DNA of 64,000 nucleotides from Terriglobia bacterium (GCA_035712365.1 DASTAW010000040.1:62001-126000), one strand, 5' to 3'. Shown: positions 3,867 through 50,142, counted from the stretch's first letter. A program made the numbers and translations. Notes: generated by a model from the letters alone, not told the origin.

Positions 3867-4336
3867 ATTTTCCCTTCACCTCAATCAATTGTTTTTCGAG
3901 CAACCTTCCCCGCCCCGCGCACAGATAATGCCCAATCATATCATTACTGGCAATCGGCTGGTTACAACTTATTGATTACCAAAACTTACAATACACCAGC
4001 AAGCCCCTCCGGAAGCCCCCGTCCCCAGGCAATACGACCGCCGTTCAGCGCCCCACGCGCACCTGACATCTTACATCTTATAGACGGTTTTCAACGCCGC
4101 GGGGTTGCCCCGGCGGCGCCGTGGATTGGAGACTCAGCGGCTGCGAAATTTACCTGCTCCCAGTATAACGGAAGCAAAACAGGTGCATTGCGGGGAGTGA
4201 CTCAGATTGGCTTGTGGCACGGGCGTCTCGCTCCCGCCTGGGCGGGACCAGGATGGCCGTGCCACAATCTAGAAGCCGCCACTGCGTTGCCGGTCCGCTT
4301 GACAATCGCAGAAGAAATAGCATAGAGTCGAAGAGT
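3867..4336. other. Intergenic region, 470 bp
   Basis: No open frame here looks like a gene. It must hold the promoter of the minus-strand secreted protein. It contains one palindromic repeat (4214-4265) and locally AT-rich sequence around 3900-4000. Nothing else recognised. Confidence 0.6.
4214..4265. repeat. Palindromic REP-like element (GTGGCACGGGCG family)
   Basis: Bounded by gtggcac and gtgccac, with internal inverted repeats of GC-rich sequence. The same family occurs at 14148-14199 and 17414-17474 between genes, and inside both kinase genes (40605, 41004, 43631, 44030). Confidence 0.75.
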
Positions 4337-4423
4337 ATGTTGAAGGTAACTAACTTTATCCTCGCTTTTAGCCTTGTGGGCCTCACGGTCCGTGAAGCCG
4401 CTCTTTCCTGTTGTTGTTGCTGA
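4337..4423 (+). CDS. mini-ORF ending in four cysteines (candidate leader peptide)
   Basis: A 28-codon frame begins ATG at 4337 with a hydrophobic segment (FILAFSLVGL) and ends SCCCC followed directly by TGA; the Cys codons are TGT TGT TGT TGC. It lies 304 bases before the ATG of the TonB receptor on the same strand. Ribosome binding is weak (gaag upstream). Polycysteine upstream ORFs acting as cysteine-responsive attenuators are known from mycobacteria; that this one does the same is inference. The sequence downstream includes a 7-bp hairpin (4454-4474) and a C-rich tract (4571-4590). A chance ORF is possible. Confidence 0.4.
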   Translation: MLKVTNFILAFSLVGLTVREAALSCCCC

Positions 4424-4536
4424 TTTCCGTCATCCACCCATTTTGAATTCCAAGGGTTGTACCTTTGACAACCCAACGCAGCCGTAAACCAGACCCGATC
4501 GAAACCGTCTTCCAGGGTGAGGACGAGGCTTCAGCG

Positions 4537-4602
4537 ATGGGCCATTTTGATTTTCCAACGTTGGCATTGCCCTCCCCGCAGCTCCCCCTGCGCTGTTGTT
4601 GA
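4537..4602 (+). CDS. second mini-ORF ending Arg-Cys-Cys (tentative)
   Basis: A 21-codon frame with ATG at 4537 and the C-terminal tail LPLRCC followed by TGA, lying between the SCCCC mini-ORF and the TonB receptor gene. No good ribosome binding site. It is listed only because a second Cys-terminated frame in the same leader is unexpected; a chance reading frame is quite possible. Confidence 0.15.
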   Translation: MGHFDFPTLALPSPQLPLRCC

Positions 4603-4727
4603 CCTCTGCTCCGCATGCCCGTGGCGCGCGGCAGTTGATGTCCTGCCCCGCCGCAACCCAATCAGAAAAACCCATTAGAGCGAAGGTGGTAAGCAACCCT
4701 GCGCGTGATTTTGAAAGGAGTTGACTC

Positions 4728-7700
4728 ATGAGACCTCTTGGGACCCTTCAACGGCTGGAGAAAATGCCCAGGCCGGCGCTGGCTTTCGTGCTCGCGATCC
4801 TGTTCGCCGCGGCTCCTGCTGCATGGGCGCAAAGTGAAGCCGCAATCACCGGTGTCGTAACCGATACAACTGGAGGCGTGGTCCCGGACGCCAGCATCAC
4901 GGTCATCAATTCAGAAACGGGCGCCCGGCGGACCATTCTTACCGACGCTGCCGGCCGCTATGAAGCTCCATTGCTCCCGGCGGGAATTTACCAAATTTCC
5001 GCGAGCAGGCAGGGGTTCGATCGGGCATCGCTTACGCTGACACTTGTGGTTGGACAGCGCGCGGAGGCAAATTTAAAGCTCTCCGTCGCCGCTGGCCATC
5101 AGGCGGTTGATGTTCAGGATACTCCCGCTACAACCCAGGTGACCACGGCCGATGCCTCCGGAGTTGTCAGCAGGCAGCAAGTAAGAGAGTTGCCGTTGAA
5201 CGGCCGCAGCTACGATCAATTGATCACCCTGAACCCTGGCGTCGTGAATTACACCTCACAGCGCGCCGGCGGCATCGGGACGAACAATTCGGTGATCGGC
5301 AATATGTTCTCGGCATCGGGACGGCGGCCGCAGGAGAACCTCTACCTCCTGAATGGGATTGAATTTACCAGCGCATCGGAAATCAACAACACGCCGGGCG
5401 GAGCCAGCGGCCAACTGCTGGGCGTCGATGCCGTGCGCGAGTTTTCTGTGGTGAAAGACGATTATGGCGCCGAATTCGGCAAGCGGCCGGGGGCGCAAAT
5501 CAACATCGTGACGGCTTCCGGCACGGACCAACTCCACGGCAACGCTTACGAGTTTCTGCGCAACAGCGCACTGGACGCGAGAAATTTCTTCGATCATGGA
5601 GGGGTTGCGCCTTTCCAGCGCAACGTTTTCGGCGGCTCTCTGGGCGGGCCCGTCAGCAAGGACCGGACCTTCCTGTTTGGGAATTACGAAGGCTACCGGC
5701 AGCACCTTCGCCTTAGTAATGTGGCGTTTGTTCCAGATGATGCCTCGCGGGCCAGCGCCGCGCCCAGTGTCCAGCCGTTCCTTGCCCTGTGGCCGGCGGC
5801 CAACGGGCCCGAATTGTTGACCTCAACCGGCGGACCCAGCGGCATCGCGCAGGCCTTCAGCAATCCGCTGCAGGCGATTCGAGAAGATTTCGGGACCGTC
5901 AGGCTCGATCACACGTTTTCAGAAAAGGACACGCTTACCGGCGTCTTTACCATCGACGACAGCGTGGCCAACACGCCAACGGCAAATCCCCTGAGCTTTG
6001 TGGATATAACATTGCGGGAGCAGGTGGCCAGCCTGAGCGAAACGCGCGTGTTCTCACCCAACGTTCTGAACCGGGCGACCTTCGGCTTTTCCCGCGGCGC
6101 ATACTATTACACGGGGCGGTCGCTGGTGGACCTGCCGGGATTTGTCGAGGGCCGGCCGATTGGCGCGGTGGTGATCGGCGGTAGCACGGCAAACAATGCG
6201 GCCACGCAGATCGCCGCAGCCGGAACCAGCGGCAGCAGCAATCTTACGGCGGTGCGAAATCTGTTCACCGCGGAAGACCAGGTCGCCATTACCCACGGCA
6301 TCCACCTTTTCAAGTTCGGCGTCTGGGCCCAGCGGATCCAGGCCAACGACAATCTCGCGCAGAACCAGTACGGCCAGGCGACCTTCTCAAATCTTCAGGC
6401 GTTCCTTGATGGCGCGGTATCCGCGTTTACGGTCACGCCATCGTCAACGCTGCTCGGCTGGCGTTCATTCGAGGGCGCCTTTTATGCAGAAGATGTGCTG
6501 AAGCCCAAACCCTCGCTCGAACTGCGGCTGGGATTCAGGGCCGAGTCCACGGACGGCTGGAATGAGGCCCACGGCCGTGCCGCCAACTATCGATTCAATT
6601 CAGCGGGCGTTATTGACACGCAGCCCACCCTAGGCCGCTCCGCCCTCACCGTCAATAACGCAAAGTTTCTCCCCTCGCCGCGCCTCGGGGTCGCGTGGTC
6701 GCCGTTTGCCTCCAGGAAGACGGTGGTCCGCGCGGGCTTTGGCCTTTACTACTCGCTGCTCGACAATCTTAGCTATCGCCTCGACAATCTCGGTCCTTAC
6801 AACCAGTCGCTGGTGATCAAGGGCGCCGCGATTTCGAGCATCCGCATCGCCCCGGACGCGCCGCCTCCATCAAATTCGGTGGTCCCGCCGAGCGGCGTGC
6901 AGCCGAGTATCGAGACCCCGACCGTGGAGTCTTACACGTTAACGATCGAGCAGCAGCTTTCCGCGAACACCTCTCTGAGCGTGGGCTATGTCGGCTCGCA
7001 TGCCTACCACGAACTGCTCAGCGTCGATGCCAACGTGCCGGTGCCCACGATCTGCCCGGCCTCGCCATGCCCGGCCGGCTATCCGGCGGGAACCTGGTAC
7101 AATCCGCCCGGCGCGCCGCTTGCCAATCCCGACGTGGGCGCTACAACGACGTGGTTCTCGGAGGGCGTCAGCTCCTATAACGCTTTGGAGGTGGACTTCA
7201 GCCGGCGCTTCAGCCGCGGACTGCAATTTCGAGGTGTTTATACTTTTGCAAAGGCTCTCGACAACGGTGATACCTTGAATACAACTCTTGCCACCAATTC
7301 ACCAGCCTACGTCAGCAATCCGCTCCTTCCGGCTTCCGACTACGGCAGGGCATCATTCGATGTGCGGCATTCTGCCGTCGTTAACGCCACCTGGGAACTT
7401 CCATTCACGTCTGGACAGACGGCCCAAGGGAGTTCCTGGCCGCGGCGCCTCCTCACCCATTGGCGGATCACCGGCATTGCAGCCTTGCAGTCGGGAATCC
7501 CCTTCACTCCCCAACTGTCGTACAATCCGTCGAACGACGGCGACACGCGCAATCCGGTGCGGCCGTCCTGGGACCCCAATTTTACGGGGCAGGTGATTCC
7601 GGGCAGCGCCAGCCGCTATTTTGATCCCAGCGCATTCATCCAGCCCTTGCCCGGCACCTACGGCAACGCGGGCCGGAATGTTTTGACGGGGCCCGGCATG

Positions 7701-7925
7701 GTTGAGACTGACGTGTCGCTGGCGAAGAGTTTCTCATTTGGAGAAAAACGGGAAGTGCAGCTTCGGGCTGACTTCTTCAACGTTTTGAACCACCCCAACC
7801 TGAATACTCCGAACCCGGTTGTGTTCACTTCGGCCACGGGGACGCCTTCGCCAACCGCCGGAGTGGTCACTTCAACGTCAACCAGTTCGCGGCAAATTCA
7901 GTTGGCCCTGAAGCTCTCGTGGTAG
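4728..7925 (+). CDS. TonB-dependent receptor, Oar-like, with carboxypeptidase-regulatory domain
   Basis: A 1065-residue outer-membrane receptor. Signal peptide at residues 1-34 (ends AAPAAWA). Carboxypeptidase-regulatory domain at about 38-120 (AITGVVTDTTGGVVPDASI, GRYEAPLLPAGIYQISA). Plug at about 145-260 with the family motif RELPLNGR. The remainder is a large beta-barrel ending in an aromatic residue (…LALKLSW), as expected for BAM-dependent insertion. Start at 4728 has a good RBS (aaaggag, 7 bases upstream). Upstream are the Cys-tailed mini-ORFs; 14 bases downstream begins tRNA-Cys, so the two may share a transcript. If the leader responds to cysteine, a sulfur-containing substrate would be a reasonable guess, but the barrel does not reveal it. 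Confidence 0.92.
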   Translation: MRPLGTLQRLEKMPRPALAFVLAILFAAAPAAWAQSEAAITGVVTDTTGGVVPDASITVINSETGARRTILTDAAGRYEAPLLPAGIYQISASRQGFDRASLTLTLVVGQRAEANLKLSVAAGHQAVDVQDTPATTQVTTADASGVVSRQQVRELPLNGRSYDQLITLNPGVVNYTSQRAGGIGTNNSVIGNMFSASGRRPQENLYLLNGIEFTSASEINNTPGGASGQLLGVDAVREFSVVKDDYGAEFGKRPGAQINIVTASGTDQLHGNAYEFLRNSALDARNFFDHGGVAPFQRNVFGGSLGGPVSKDRTFLFGNYEGYRQHLRLSNVAFVPDDASRASAAPSVQPFLALWPAANGPELLTSTGGPSGIAQAFSNPLQAIREDFGTVRLDHTFSEKDTLTGVFTIDDSVANTPTANPLSFVDITLREQVASLSETRVFSPNVLNRATFGFSRGAYYYTGRSLVDLPGFVEGRPIGAVVIGGSTANNAATQIAAAGTSGSSNLTAVRNLFTAEDQVAITHGIHLFKFGVWAQRIQANDNLAQNQYGQATFSNLQAFLDGAVSAFTVTPSSTLLGWRSFEGAFYAEDVLKPKPSLELRLGFRAESTDGWNEAHGRAANYRFNSAGVIDTQPTLGRSALTVNNAKFLPSPRLGVAWSPFASRKTVVRAGFGLYYSLLDNLSYRLDNLGPYNQSLVIKGAAISSIRIAPDAPPPSNSVVPPSGVQPSIETPTVESYTLTIEQQLSANTSLSVGYVGSHAYHELLSVDANVPVPTICPASPCPAGYPAGTWYNPPGAPLANPDVGATTTWFSEGVSSYNALEVDFSRRFSRGLQFRGVYTFAKALDNGDTLNTTLATNSPAYVSNPLLPASDYGRASFDVRHSAVVNATWELPFTSGQTAQGSSWPRRLLTHWRITGIAALQSGIPFTPQLSYNPSNDGDTRNPVRPSWDPNFTGQVIPGSASRYFDPSAFIQPLPGTYGNAGRNVLTGPGMVETDVSLAKSFSFGEKREVQLRADFFNVLNHPNLNTPNPVVFTSATGTPSPTAGVVTSTSTSSRQIQLALKLSW

Positions 7926-7939
7926 CTCGTGGCAGAGAA

Positions 7940-8013
7940 GGCGCGGTCGCCAAGTGGTAAGGCCAAGGTCTGCAAAACCTTGATCGGCGGTTCGATTCCG
8001 CCCCGCGCCTCCA
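7940..8013 (+). tRNA. tRNA-Cys (GCA)
   Basis: Full cloverleaf: acceptor ggcgcgg pairs with ccgcgcc; anticodon stem aaggt/acctt with loop ctgcaaa, anticodon GCA at 7972-7974; T stem ggcgg/ccgcc around ttcgatt. The discriminator base is T (U73), the key CysRS identity element, and CCA is encoded at 8011-8013. Only 14 bases separate it from the stop codon of the TonB receptor. Confidence 0.96.
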
Positions 8014-8112: not shown

Positions 8113-8676
8113 ATGAACCAACAGTGCGCAGCCCCGGCGCTTCCGGTCATCGCAGATGCCGATCCCGCCGATCGGCTGGCGCGATTGTCCGATGCCCATT
8201 ACGACCGTCTCTACCGCCTGGCCAGACGGCTGGCGCCGAACGCCGATGATGCTCTGGATCTCGTCCAGGAGGCGTTTCTAAGGGCGGCCCGATGCCCAAA
8301 ATCAATCCCTCGAGGGGCGTCGAATGAAGAGGCGTGGCTCGTCCGCGTACTCATCAACATCCGCCGCGACCAGTGGCGAAGGGTATCGGTTCGCGCCCGG
8401 CATCAGGAAACCGCCTTGCAAGCTGGGCGGCACGACTCTAACACGAGGAACCCAGAACCAGCGCTGATTGCCAGGGCGGCTGTGTGGCAGGCGCTGGACG
8501 TCCTGCCTCCGCGGCGGCGCGCCATCGTCGTGATGCACGAACTTGAGGAATTGCCCGTCTCGAAAATTGCGTCCCTTCTTGGCATCAGCGCCATTACGGT
8601 CCGCTGGCATCTCGCCATGGGCAGGCGCGATCTGGCCCGCGCACTTAAAACTTCCGGAGGACTCACCCATGAATAA
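8113..8676 (+). CDS. ECF-type RNA polymerase sigma factor
   Basis: A 187-residue protein with sigma region 2 (about 25-90: HYDRLYRLARRLAPNADDA, LDLVQEAFLRA, WLVRVLINIRRDQWRR) and region 4 (about 125-180: LDVLPPRRRAIVVMHELEE, then the helix-turn-helix SKIASLLGISAITVRWHL). It directs RNA polymerase to a small regulon. The stop overlaps the ATG of the next gene by 8 bases, so the two are translationally coupled and the downstream membrane protein is probably its regulator. ATG at 8113 keeps region 2 complete; the RBS is poor. Confidence 0.9.
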   Translation: MNQQCAAPALPVIADADPADRLARLSDAHYDRLYRLARRLAPNADDALDLVQEAFLRAARCPKSIPRGASNEEAWLVRVLINIRRDQWRRVSVRARHQETALQAGRHDSNTRNPEPALIARAAVWQALDVLPPRRRAIVVMHELEELPVSKIASLLGISAITVRWHLAMGRRDLARALKTSGGLTHE

Positions 8677-9301
8677 GCTAAGAGAGCTTCTGCAGGATGC
8701 CGACCCGCTTCAGCACGAACCGGCACTGCCGCCGGCCCAGAGGGCTTTGCGCCGCCAGGCAGTGCTTGCGGCAGCCAGCCGCACCTACGTACCCGCGGGC
8801 GGAAGGCCGCGGTCGAGGAGGGCCGTTTTAGCGACTTCCGCTTTGATGCTGGCCGCTGTCCTGGCCCTCGGGGCGGTCCTGTGGTCAGTATTCAACAGCA
8901 ATCTTCAGGCGGCCATTCGGTTTGAAGTCAGGATGGCTGAAACAAGCCCCGCTGCCGGCCTGCAGAAGGCAAAAGTGGCGGACTCCGATCGGTACGTTTA
9001 CCTCCATAGTGAGGTCGTTGTGAGCAACAGCGACATCGCTGCGGTGCAGGTGGTCGAGACGGGCGGGCCGTCGCAATATGGCATTAGCGTGAAGTTTAAC
9101 GCAGCCGGAGCTGACAAAATGCGCCAGGCGACCCAGGCCCACATCGGGAAGCCCCTCGCCATCCTCCTCGATGGCCAGGTGATTATGGCGCCGGTGGTCC
9201 GTGATGCTGTCGGGCAGTCCGCCATGCTGACCGGCCACTACACCAAAGCAGCGGCACAAAACATCGCCGAGAGGATCATCAAGGGAATTGGAATGCAGTA
9301 G
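8669..9301 (+). CDS. single-pass membrane protein with SecD P1-head-like domain; putative anti-sigma partner
   Basis: ATG at 8669 sits 9 bases after ggagg and overlaps the sigma gene, giving 210 residues. Residues 1-52 are cytoplasmic and charged, 53-75 form a membrane segment (AVLATSALMLAAVLALGAVL), and about 85-210 resemble the SecD/SecDF P1 head subdomain (GISVKFNAAGADKMRQAT, IGKPLAILLDGQVIMAPVV, then LTGHYTKAAAQNIAERI). Position and topology suggest a membrane-bound regulator of the sigma factor, but the cytoplasmic part has no recognisable zinc anti-sigma motif. The head-domain match is by sequence pattern; the role is inference. Confidence 0.75.
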   Translation: MNKLRELLQDADPLQHEPALPPAQRALRRQAVLAAASRTYVPAGGRPRSRRAVLATSALMLAAVLALGAVLWSVFNSNLQAAIRFEVRMAETSPAAGLQKAKVADSDRYVYLHSEVVVSNSDIAAVQVVETGGPSQYGISVKFNAAGADKMRQATQAHIGKPLAILLDGQVIMAPVVRDAVGQSAMLTGHYTKAAAQNIAERIIKGIGMQ

Positions 9302-9441: not shown

Positions 9442-10272
9442 CTAATCTTCTCGACCGCCTTTTAGGCTCTTTGCATCTCTGGCTTGCTTTTCGGCGAGCT
9501 TCTTGATTGAGGGGACAGCCAGAAGTTCTTCGGGCATTTTCCCTTGAATTTCCTTAATGGCTTGTCTCACCCTACTCCCCACTGAGAAATGAGCGTTTAT
9601 TGCGTTTTCTTCACCCCTAGTTTGCTCTCGCTTCAGCTTCGCCTCGGTTTGTGTAATCCTAAACTCGTTCGCAGCTAGCTCCTCCCGATCTATACAGTCC
9701 AGGAGTTCGTCCTCTCTCGATATGCCTTTGGCTTTCTTTATCTCGTCCCTTCCGAGCCCTCCGTAGAGACCCTTGTATCCAGCATCTTGAAAGACAGGGT
9801 ATTTCTTCACCCCGGCTGCCTTAGCCACGCTCATTAATTTCTTGTTCGCATCTTTTACTCGATTCCTAATCAACAGTCTTCTTTGTTGGTCTGTCAGGGC
9901 TTGCTCAATTTCCTGGGTGCGGGTCTGGACGGCGAAATAGGTCTGCGCAGTGCTGACTTCCGGCTTTTCGGTATCTCCGTTCATGGCGATCAGGTAACAG
10001 GCATACCTACTAAGTACGAAGTTTTCTCTTTTCCTCTTTGCTCCACTTCCTATCGGGACCATTTCCCTGATACCAAGAAAATGGTTGGAGGAAGGCTTCC
10101 CCGAATTATCACACGCTATGCGTGCCTTCTTGACCACAGCCGTAAAGTTTTCCCAGTTAGCATAAGCCAGTATTTCCATAACATCGCGCCCGTACCAGAA
10201 AGGGAAGCCTTTGGGGGTGACGTGCATCCTAGCATCCAAGGCAGTTTTGATGTACTCGATATGTGATTCCAT
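9442..10272 (-). CDS. dinD: DNA damage-inducible protein D (DinD) homologue
   Basis: Start set at MESHIEY (10272): ggagagg lies 9 bases upstream, giving 276 residues, close to E. coli DinD (274). The N-terminal half has the Bro-N/KilA-N-like fold typical of DinD (FPFWYGRDVMEILAYANWEN, FVLSRYACYLIAMNGD, VSTAQTYFAVQTR) and the C-terminal half is the charged DinD-specific region (GRDEIKKAKGISREDELLD). E. coli DinD is SOS-induced and modulates RecA; no LexA site of a kind I can recognise is visible here. The gene is AT-richer than its surroundings and pairs divergently with a HARE-HTH gene, suggesting a transferred island. Confidence 0.88.
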   Translation of the reverse strand: MESHIEYIKTALDARMHVTPKGFPFWYGRDVMEILAYANWENFTAVVKKARIACDNSGKPSSNHFLGIREMVPIGSGAKRKRENFVLSRYACYLIAMNGDTEKPEVSTAQTYFAVQTRTQEIEQALTDQQRRLLIRNRVKDANKKLMSVAKAAGVKKYPVFQDAGYKGLYGGLGRDEIKKAKGISREDELLDCIDREELAANEFRITQTEAKLKREQTRGEENAINAHFSVGSRVRQAIKEIQGKMPEELLAVPSIKKLAEKQARDAKSLKGGRED

Positions 10273-10310
10273 GATCGTGAACCTCTCCGATGGTATTTTG
10301 TTACGCTGCA

Positions 10311-10316
10311 ATTATA
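10311..10316 (-). promoter_or_regulatory. candidate -10 box for dinD
   Basis: A perfect TATAAT on the minus strand 38 bases before the dinD start, in an AT-rich stretch. No good -35 hexamer at 16-18 bases, so the call rests on the -10 alone. Confidence 0.35.
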
Positions 10317-49930: not shown

Positions 49931-49967
49931 CGAGAAATCCGTCCGGGCCGATTCATCATCCGCCGGA

Positions 49968-50142
49968 CAACCTCCTGGTCTGAGCTTCAGCTCCACACAA
50001 CGTACATTCCCCATCGCATTTGAGGATAGCCACCTTAGGCAGAGCCTTAATCCGGCCATGCCTGCTCTACCCGTTGGCGCGTCTCCGCGTTTCCGGGCAG
50101 TGGCTTGTGTTTGCGTGGTAACCTCGCCTAACGAGGTCTGCA
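49968..50142 (-). ncRNA. M-box (ykoK) Mg2+ riboswitch
   Basis: Read on the minus strand, the conserved M-box blocks occur in order: cctcgttaggcgaggt, acaagccactgcccggaaac, gcgccaacgggtagagcagg, ctctgcctaaggtggct, then a ggagctgaagctc hairpin and gaggt that can pair with acctc at the 5' end to close P1. A terminator follows at 49891-49930. M-boxes bind Mg2+ and switch off Mg2+ transporter genes when Mg2+ is plentiful. It directly precedes the MgtE-N/CBS and Nramp-like genes. Edges are approximate. Confidence 0.94.

Follow-up and report, generated by a model that had tools for sequence, protein, structure and literature searches.

Why would a short open reading frame (ORF) ending in four Cys codons precede the gene of a TonB-dependent receptor that is itself directly followed by a tRNA-Cys gene? 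This arrangement is found in a window of 64,000 nucleotides (the whole stretch of DNA analyzed) belonging to the 4.67 Mb genome of an Acidobacteriota (Terriglobia), labeled G000. The present analysis indicates that the locus likely carries a Cys-codon attenuator that controls a sulfur-linked TonB-dependent receptor; there are no expression data, and both the response to cysteine and the direction of the control are inferred. The anatomy of the locus is shown and includes the following features:

4299-4328, plus strand: sigma-70-like promoter (TTGACA at 4299-4304, 18 nt, TAGAGT at 4323-4328), the start of uORF1 being 8 nt further on
4337-4423, plus strand: uORF1, a near-leaderless Cys leader ORF of 28 codons encoding MLKVTNFILAFSLVGLTVREAALSCCCC and ending Cys-Cys-Cys-Cys-stop
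4424-4536, plus strand: C-rich, G-poor inter-ORF segment, candidate Rho loading region (inferred)
4454-4474, plus strand: hairpin GGGTTGT-ACCTTTG-ACAACCC, without U tract, at the position of the terminator of relatives
4537-4602, plus strand: uORF2, a second Cys leader ORF encoding MGHFDFPTLALPSPQLPLRCC and ending RCC-stop (PLRCC-stop)
4603-4712, plus strand: C-rich spacer from the uORF2 stop to the receptor ribosome binding site, candidate Rho loading region (inferred)
4715-4720, plus strand: Shine-Dalgarno sequence of the receptor, AAGGAG
4728-7925, plus strand: TonB-dependent outer-membrane receptor of 1065 aa (carboxypeptidase-regulatory-like domain and beta barrel)
7940-8013, plus strand: tRNA-Cys(GCA) gene, the second one of this genome; co-transcription with the receptor is probable (inferred)

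The initial annotation of this locus had reported uORF1, the receptor, the tRNA-Cys(GCA) and the distances that separate them (304 nt from uORF1 to the receptor and 14 nt from the receptor to the tRNA-Cys), all of which held. It lacked uORF2, the promoter and the status of the tRNA gene as a second copy.

The poly-Cys end of uORF1 is more than a chance occurrence since TGYTGYTGYTGY followed by TRR is found only four times in the 4.67 Mb genome, compared to once for the reversed pattern, and since the family-wide counts of CCC-containing mini-ORFs given below agree with this. The spacing between promoter and ATG predicts that transcription would start on the uORF1 start codon itself or only a few bases away from it, no transcript start having been mapped. 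Sites with a similar spacing (promoter 6-11 nt before an ATG) number 53 in G000 compared to seven for the reversed pattern. Therefore, near-leaderless genes are likely common in this lineage (an approximately seven-fold excess over the reversed-pattern control), an inference drawn from sequence alone. This leaderless scan of G000 did not directly reveal any further poly-Cys ORF. The Rfam search of the window did not identify any leader family; it matched only the tRNA and an M-box (ykoK) magnesium riboswitch (133 bits) located at 49965-50142 on the minus strand.

The receptor carries the domains PF13620 (CarboxypepD_reg) and PF25183 (a full OMP_b-brl_4 barrel). Its fold model is of low confidence (mean pLDDT of 55, with a poorly modelled plug region); at least 50 Foldseek hits of this model are TonB-dependent transporters. 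Downstream from the tRNA-Cys, the region 8113-9301 encodes an ECF sigma factor and then a protein with a match to the P1 head domain of SecDF, and the minus strand encodes at 9442-10311 a BRO-N domain protein, which belongs to a family often seen in phages.

Is this leader maintained by selection? Its conservation was shown in a relative of the same genus (genome G002, leader locus L006), whose receptor is 84% identical to that of the window and which retains both Cys ORFs, the promoter, the inter-ORF hairpin and the tRNA-Cys. The L006 promoter is found at the same place (TTGACA-18-TAAAGT, with the ATG 8 nt later), and the hairpin differs by one compensatory pair change. All the indels between the two leaders lie outside the two ORFs, uORF1 being aligned without indels in L006 (MFRGTNIISAYALANLTVRRVAPSCCCR, then stop) and uORF2 reading MSHFDIHTPARPSQQARLRCC, then stop. 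Most changed codons are non-synonymous (13 out of 17 in uORF1 and eight out of eight in uORF2), and only the starts, the stops and the Cys codons are protected in both ORFs, with one exception for the latter, the last Cys codon of uORF1 being changed to Arg. Because nothing else is protected, these ORFs likely act as leaders whose codons are read and not as genes of functional peptides, an inference that also rests on sequence alone.

At the DNA level, the search for the leader found it in the same genus only, besides two short matches in other families at unrelated places. Cys ORFs encoding unrelated peptides (for example MTLLPPTRHNAPAAPRRRCCCCGSRCCCCCCC, then stop) recur in further loci. The comparison set comprised 80 further loci and the counts are based on 75 related receptor loci. 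Upstream mini-ORFs with CCC in their last 12 codons were found in 33 of these 75 loci, compared to none on the reverse strand and to a mean of 0.2 in shuffled sequences. With a looser criterion (any Cys-rich upstream ORF), the trait is present in 52 of 57 receptors belonging to two clades and in only one of 18 receptors of the sister clade (Fisher p = 1.5e-11). On the receptor tree, the CCC-type ORF marks these two clades and is missing from their sister clade, its distribution requiring 13 changes compared to 32.5 in shuffles (0 of 500 shuffles). In these upstream regions, 19 of the 20 mini-ORFs located 5-12 nt after a sigma-70-like promoter are Cys-rich, and two successive Cys ORFs occur in 17 loci. 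It should be emphasized that several classes (promoter, uORF, architecture) were defined after the data had been seen and that related loci are not fully independent; p-values are only guides.

What do these leaders control? The linkage to sulfur metabolism was shown across the family. In the two clades, cysDN/TauE or YeiH genes are found within 6 kb of the receptor in 28 of 51 loci, compared to none of 11 in the sister clade. The receptor gene is either divergent from or downstream of cysD-cysN(-cysH)-TauE, or directly follows YeiH, a member of a putative sulfate exporter family. Cys leader ORFs also precede these sulfur genes themselves: among 30 PAPS_reduct loci, 11 have one upstream of a cysD operon, whereas about nine are cysH genes, mostly inside operons, that lack a Cys leader; YeiH genes are preceded by such an ORF in 18 of 30 loci. 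Four YeiH leaders (L202, L204, L209 and L210) encode a common, well conserved 28-residue peptide with 8-9 Cys and have a terminator of the form ACCCACGT..ACGTGGGTTTT; they would be a good basis for a new RNA family model.

Furthermore, the window's own genome carries a complete textbook Cys attenuator, as far as sequence anatomy goes, in front of a NirA-type sulfite/nitrite reductase gene, a leader located by gene family. It comprises a promoter (TTGACA-17-TAGAAT), a 13 nt spacing, a uORF encoding MGKRLHSGDCMCCCTSAPACGG up to its stop, and then a terminator with a U tract; the last bases of the uORF, GGUGGGU, can pair as an antiterminator with the terminator arm ACCCACC. The same reductase attenuator is present in G002. 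This terminator pattern occurs once in G000, once in G002 and in none of 59 other genomes, being unique to the reductase site. By contrast, cysH of the window genome has no comparable Cys leader, and no sulfur genes adjoin the window receptor in G000. Its sulfur role is inferred from its orthologues only, and the imported compound is inferred, not identified.

Two leader designs can be distinguished. In the first one, the Cys codons are internal to the uORF, whose tail copies the 3′ arm of an intrinsic terminator located ~25-70 nt after the stop. It is found upstream of receptors (L070, L072, L094, L054, L056 and others), of cysD (L224, L230 and L234) and of YeiH (L202-L210). The match between uORF tail and terminator arm is convincing in L070, L072, L224 and L234, but unconvincing in some others. 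The first count of terminators was not above that of shuffled sequences and became informative only after the use of a stronger energy cut and of the sister clade as a control: a uORF followed by an intrinsic terminator was then found for 13 of 57 receptors of the two clades (including L054 and L056) and for none of 18 in the sister clade. At the reductase of the window's own genome, terminator and antiterminator structures exclude each other, which shows that the terminator-type class coexists there with the window leader, but the window receptor leader has no such pair of structures.

In the second design, to which the window belongs, the Cys run is at or beside the stop, a C-rich and G-poor segment occupies the following 80 nt, and a terminator is lacking; in most cases, the receptor starts 78-116 nt after this stop. 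The last CC is at a median of eight codons from the stop in leaders with a terminator compared to one codon in those without (p = 9e-8). The 80 nt following terminal-Cys ORFs have a C content of 0.345 and a G content of 0.197, compared to 0.280 and 0.270 in the sister clade (p = 8e-11). In the window, the first 80 nt have values of 0.325 and 0.163 after uORF1 and of 0.388 and 0.25 after uORF2. No intrinsic terminator was found in the receptor leaders of the window and of L006. We read this second design as putatively Rho-dependent, with a rut-like segment after the stop, a reading that is inferred and supported only at the level of the family. The possibility that Cys tracts generally pair with the start of the receptor gene was also considered and rejected, the observed pairs doing no better than swapped ones; L006 and L069 do have matches of 9-10 nt.

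The tRNA-Cys gene of the window is not the canonical one. In this family, the canonical tRNA-Cys gene adjoins tRNA-Gly elsewhere in the genome, and the window gene is a second one, 85% identical to it. A tRNA-Cys gene is located behind the receptor in six genomes (those of the window, G002, G036, G035, L054 and L056). In L054 and L056, the receptor-tRNA-Cys unit is preceded by a Cys uORF and its strong terminator (of -29.5 and -29.9 kcal/mol). Co-transcription of receptor and tRNA-Cys is inferred and likely, and the extra tRNA-Cys is probably under the control of the same leader. In L008 (G036:C144), another possible Cys-ended mini-ORF (ending HCAPCTCR-stop), preceded by a promoter-like stretch, was observed beyond the receptor-tRNA-Cys unit, ~250-400 nt past the receptor stop and downstream from the tRNA-Cys.

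The mechanism that we propose is the following. When Cys-tRNA is sufficient, ribosomes would complete uORF1 and uORF2 and exit the leader, and receptor expression would be curtailed. When charged tRNA-Cys is scarce, a ribosome would come to a halt at the Cys codons that immediately precede the stops, the receptor would be expressed and a sulfur source would be imported. In relatives with an intrinsic terminator, the stall would leave the uORF tail, which copies the terminator 3′ arm, free to act as an antiterminator. In the window, the stalled ribosome would protect from Rho the C-rich RNA that immediately follows the stop, by analogy with E. coli tna. Since its leader has no intrinsic terminator, Rho is the most likely switch in the window; the preference for Rho over translation is inferred, and we hold it only by a small margin.

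As to the interpretation given by the initial annotation, the cysteine-responsive control of the receptor that it suggested is supported by conservation and linkage, the cysteine response itself remaining inferred. Its suggestion would have been refuted by a lack of conservation of the mini-ORF; a Cys ORF is kept before the orthologue and throughout two receptor clades. Import of a sulfur compound was a guess and is now backed by the neighborhood of related receptors, the cysD and YeiH leaders and the NirA-type reductase attenuator. The presence of a Rho loading site in the C-rich stretch has support at the family level only: taken alone, the stretch that follows uORF1 is ordinary, its C-over-G richness being matched by 12.6% of window segments. 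The association of the tRNA with the receptor, which it placed in one unit, recurs in six genomes.

Translation attenuation, as in the model for mycobacterial poly-Cys ORFs, remains a possible explanation: the stall would open a structure that hides the receptor ribosome binding site, without premature termination. In its favor, the window leader has a near-leaderless poly-Cys ORF, as in mycobacteria, and no intrinsic terminator, and its minimum free energy fold pairs CAGCUCC of uORF2 with the receptor Shine-Dalgarno sequence. However, masking the Cys codons by a ribosome opens the Shine-Dalgarno sequence no more than control masks do (44 loci, p = 0.86, folding being a weak test), pairing between Cys tract and receptor start is not general, and the C-over-G skew is left unexplained. 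It is very unlikely that the Cys-rich nascent peptide itself acts as the sensor, as in CutF-type uORFs, with the ribosome stalling in response to redox state or to a metal such as copper. Cys-rich peptides do bind metals, CutF-like ORFs are found upstream of metal genes (PMC9973294) and a TonB receptor could import a metal. Nevertheless, the leader peptides share no motif beyond their Cys codons, their other residues evolve freely, the linked genes are sulfate assimilation genes and the terminator-type members obey the logic of tRNA-charging attenuators. CutF-type ORFs are characterized by a conserved peptide that combines a signal sequence, a metal motif and a proline-rich motif for stalling, and the Cys leader peptides do not show these hallmarks. 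A last reading is that the poly-Cys ORF arose by chance and has no relation to the neighboring receptor and tRNA. Short ORFs are common and no sulfur genes adjoin the window receptor, but this reading is contradicted by conservation, by the reverse-strand and shuffled controls and by the sulfur linkage, and is all but excluded.

Codon-reading attenuation with Rho as the putative switch remains our preferred reading for the window. A bolder version would combine an Acidobacteriota cysteine-starvation regulon, a single signal sensed by two successive ORFs of one leader (the near-leaderless uORF1 followed by uORF2), codon-starved ribosomes that shield a Rho site at the stop and a regulated transcript bearing a second copy of the sensed tRNA; taken jointly, these elements are somewhat less likely than not. 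A 2010 description of Acidobacteriota attenuators left nearly all of them without an assigned function (PMC2965389). The present work assigns to them a putative cysteine regulon (cysD, YeiH, the NirA-type reductase and one group of TonB receptors), shows two attenuator designs in use side by side and predicts a role in sulfur acquisition for an orphan family of receptors that belongs to bacteria abundant in soil. The Cys-leader receptor system is directly testable since it is present in Granulicella and Edaphobacter, which can be cultured.

The family meets two of the criteria of ribosome-mediated amino-acid attenuators: a leader ORF with a run of regulatory codons and controlled genes involved in the supply of the same amino acid (by orthology only for the window). 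In the open-access literature searched, we found nothing on cysteine attenuation in Acidobacteriota nor on a TonB receptor controlled in this way. The closest systems include the leaderless short poly-cysteine ORFs found at the cys operons of mycobacteria (first noted in PMC1262725; Canestrari et al. 2020, as cited in PMC13236596), which share with the present system a near-leaderless short ORF, terminal Cys codons, no intrinsic terminator and sulfur genes downstream. The window differs by its phylum, the lack of peptide similarity, its TonB-dependent receptor target with a tRNA-Cys behind, its two leader ORFs in series and the coexistence of a terminator-type class in the same genome. The uORFC-8-2 motif, which precedes cysS in Rhodobacterales (PMC8632094), consists of a leader ORF with Cys codons in tandem and, after it, an intrinsic terminator; it corresponds to our terminator-type class, but concerns another gene and another phylum, whereas the window leader is devoid of terminator. 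As in the Rho-dependent attenuation of E. coli tnaC, a ribosome held close to the stop codon of the leader could cover a Rho site that lies immediately after it; however, TnaC senses free tryptophan via its nascent peptide whereas we propose codon starvation, Rho being only inferred. TonB receptors under sulfur regulation, of which SftP of Pseudomonas is an example, are linked to sulfur supply and use LysR-type regulators. They resemble the window receptor as outer-membrane receptors tied to sulfur supply but differ in their control, and to our knowledge none has a Cys leader. Overall, Cys leader ORFs are already known as a kind, and their host phylum, receptor target, tandem layout and tRNA partner are new, as far as the literature searched shows.
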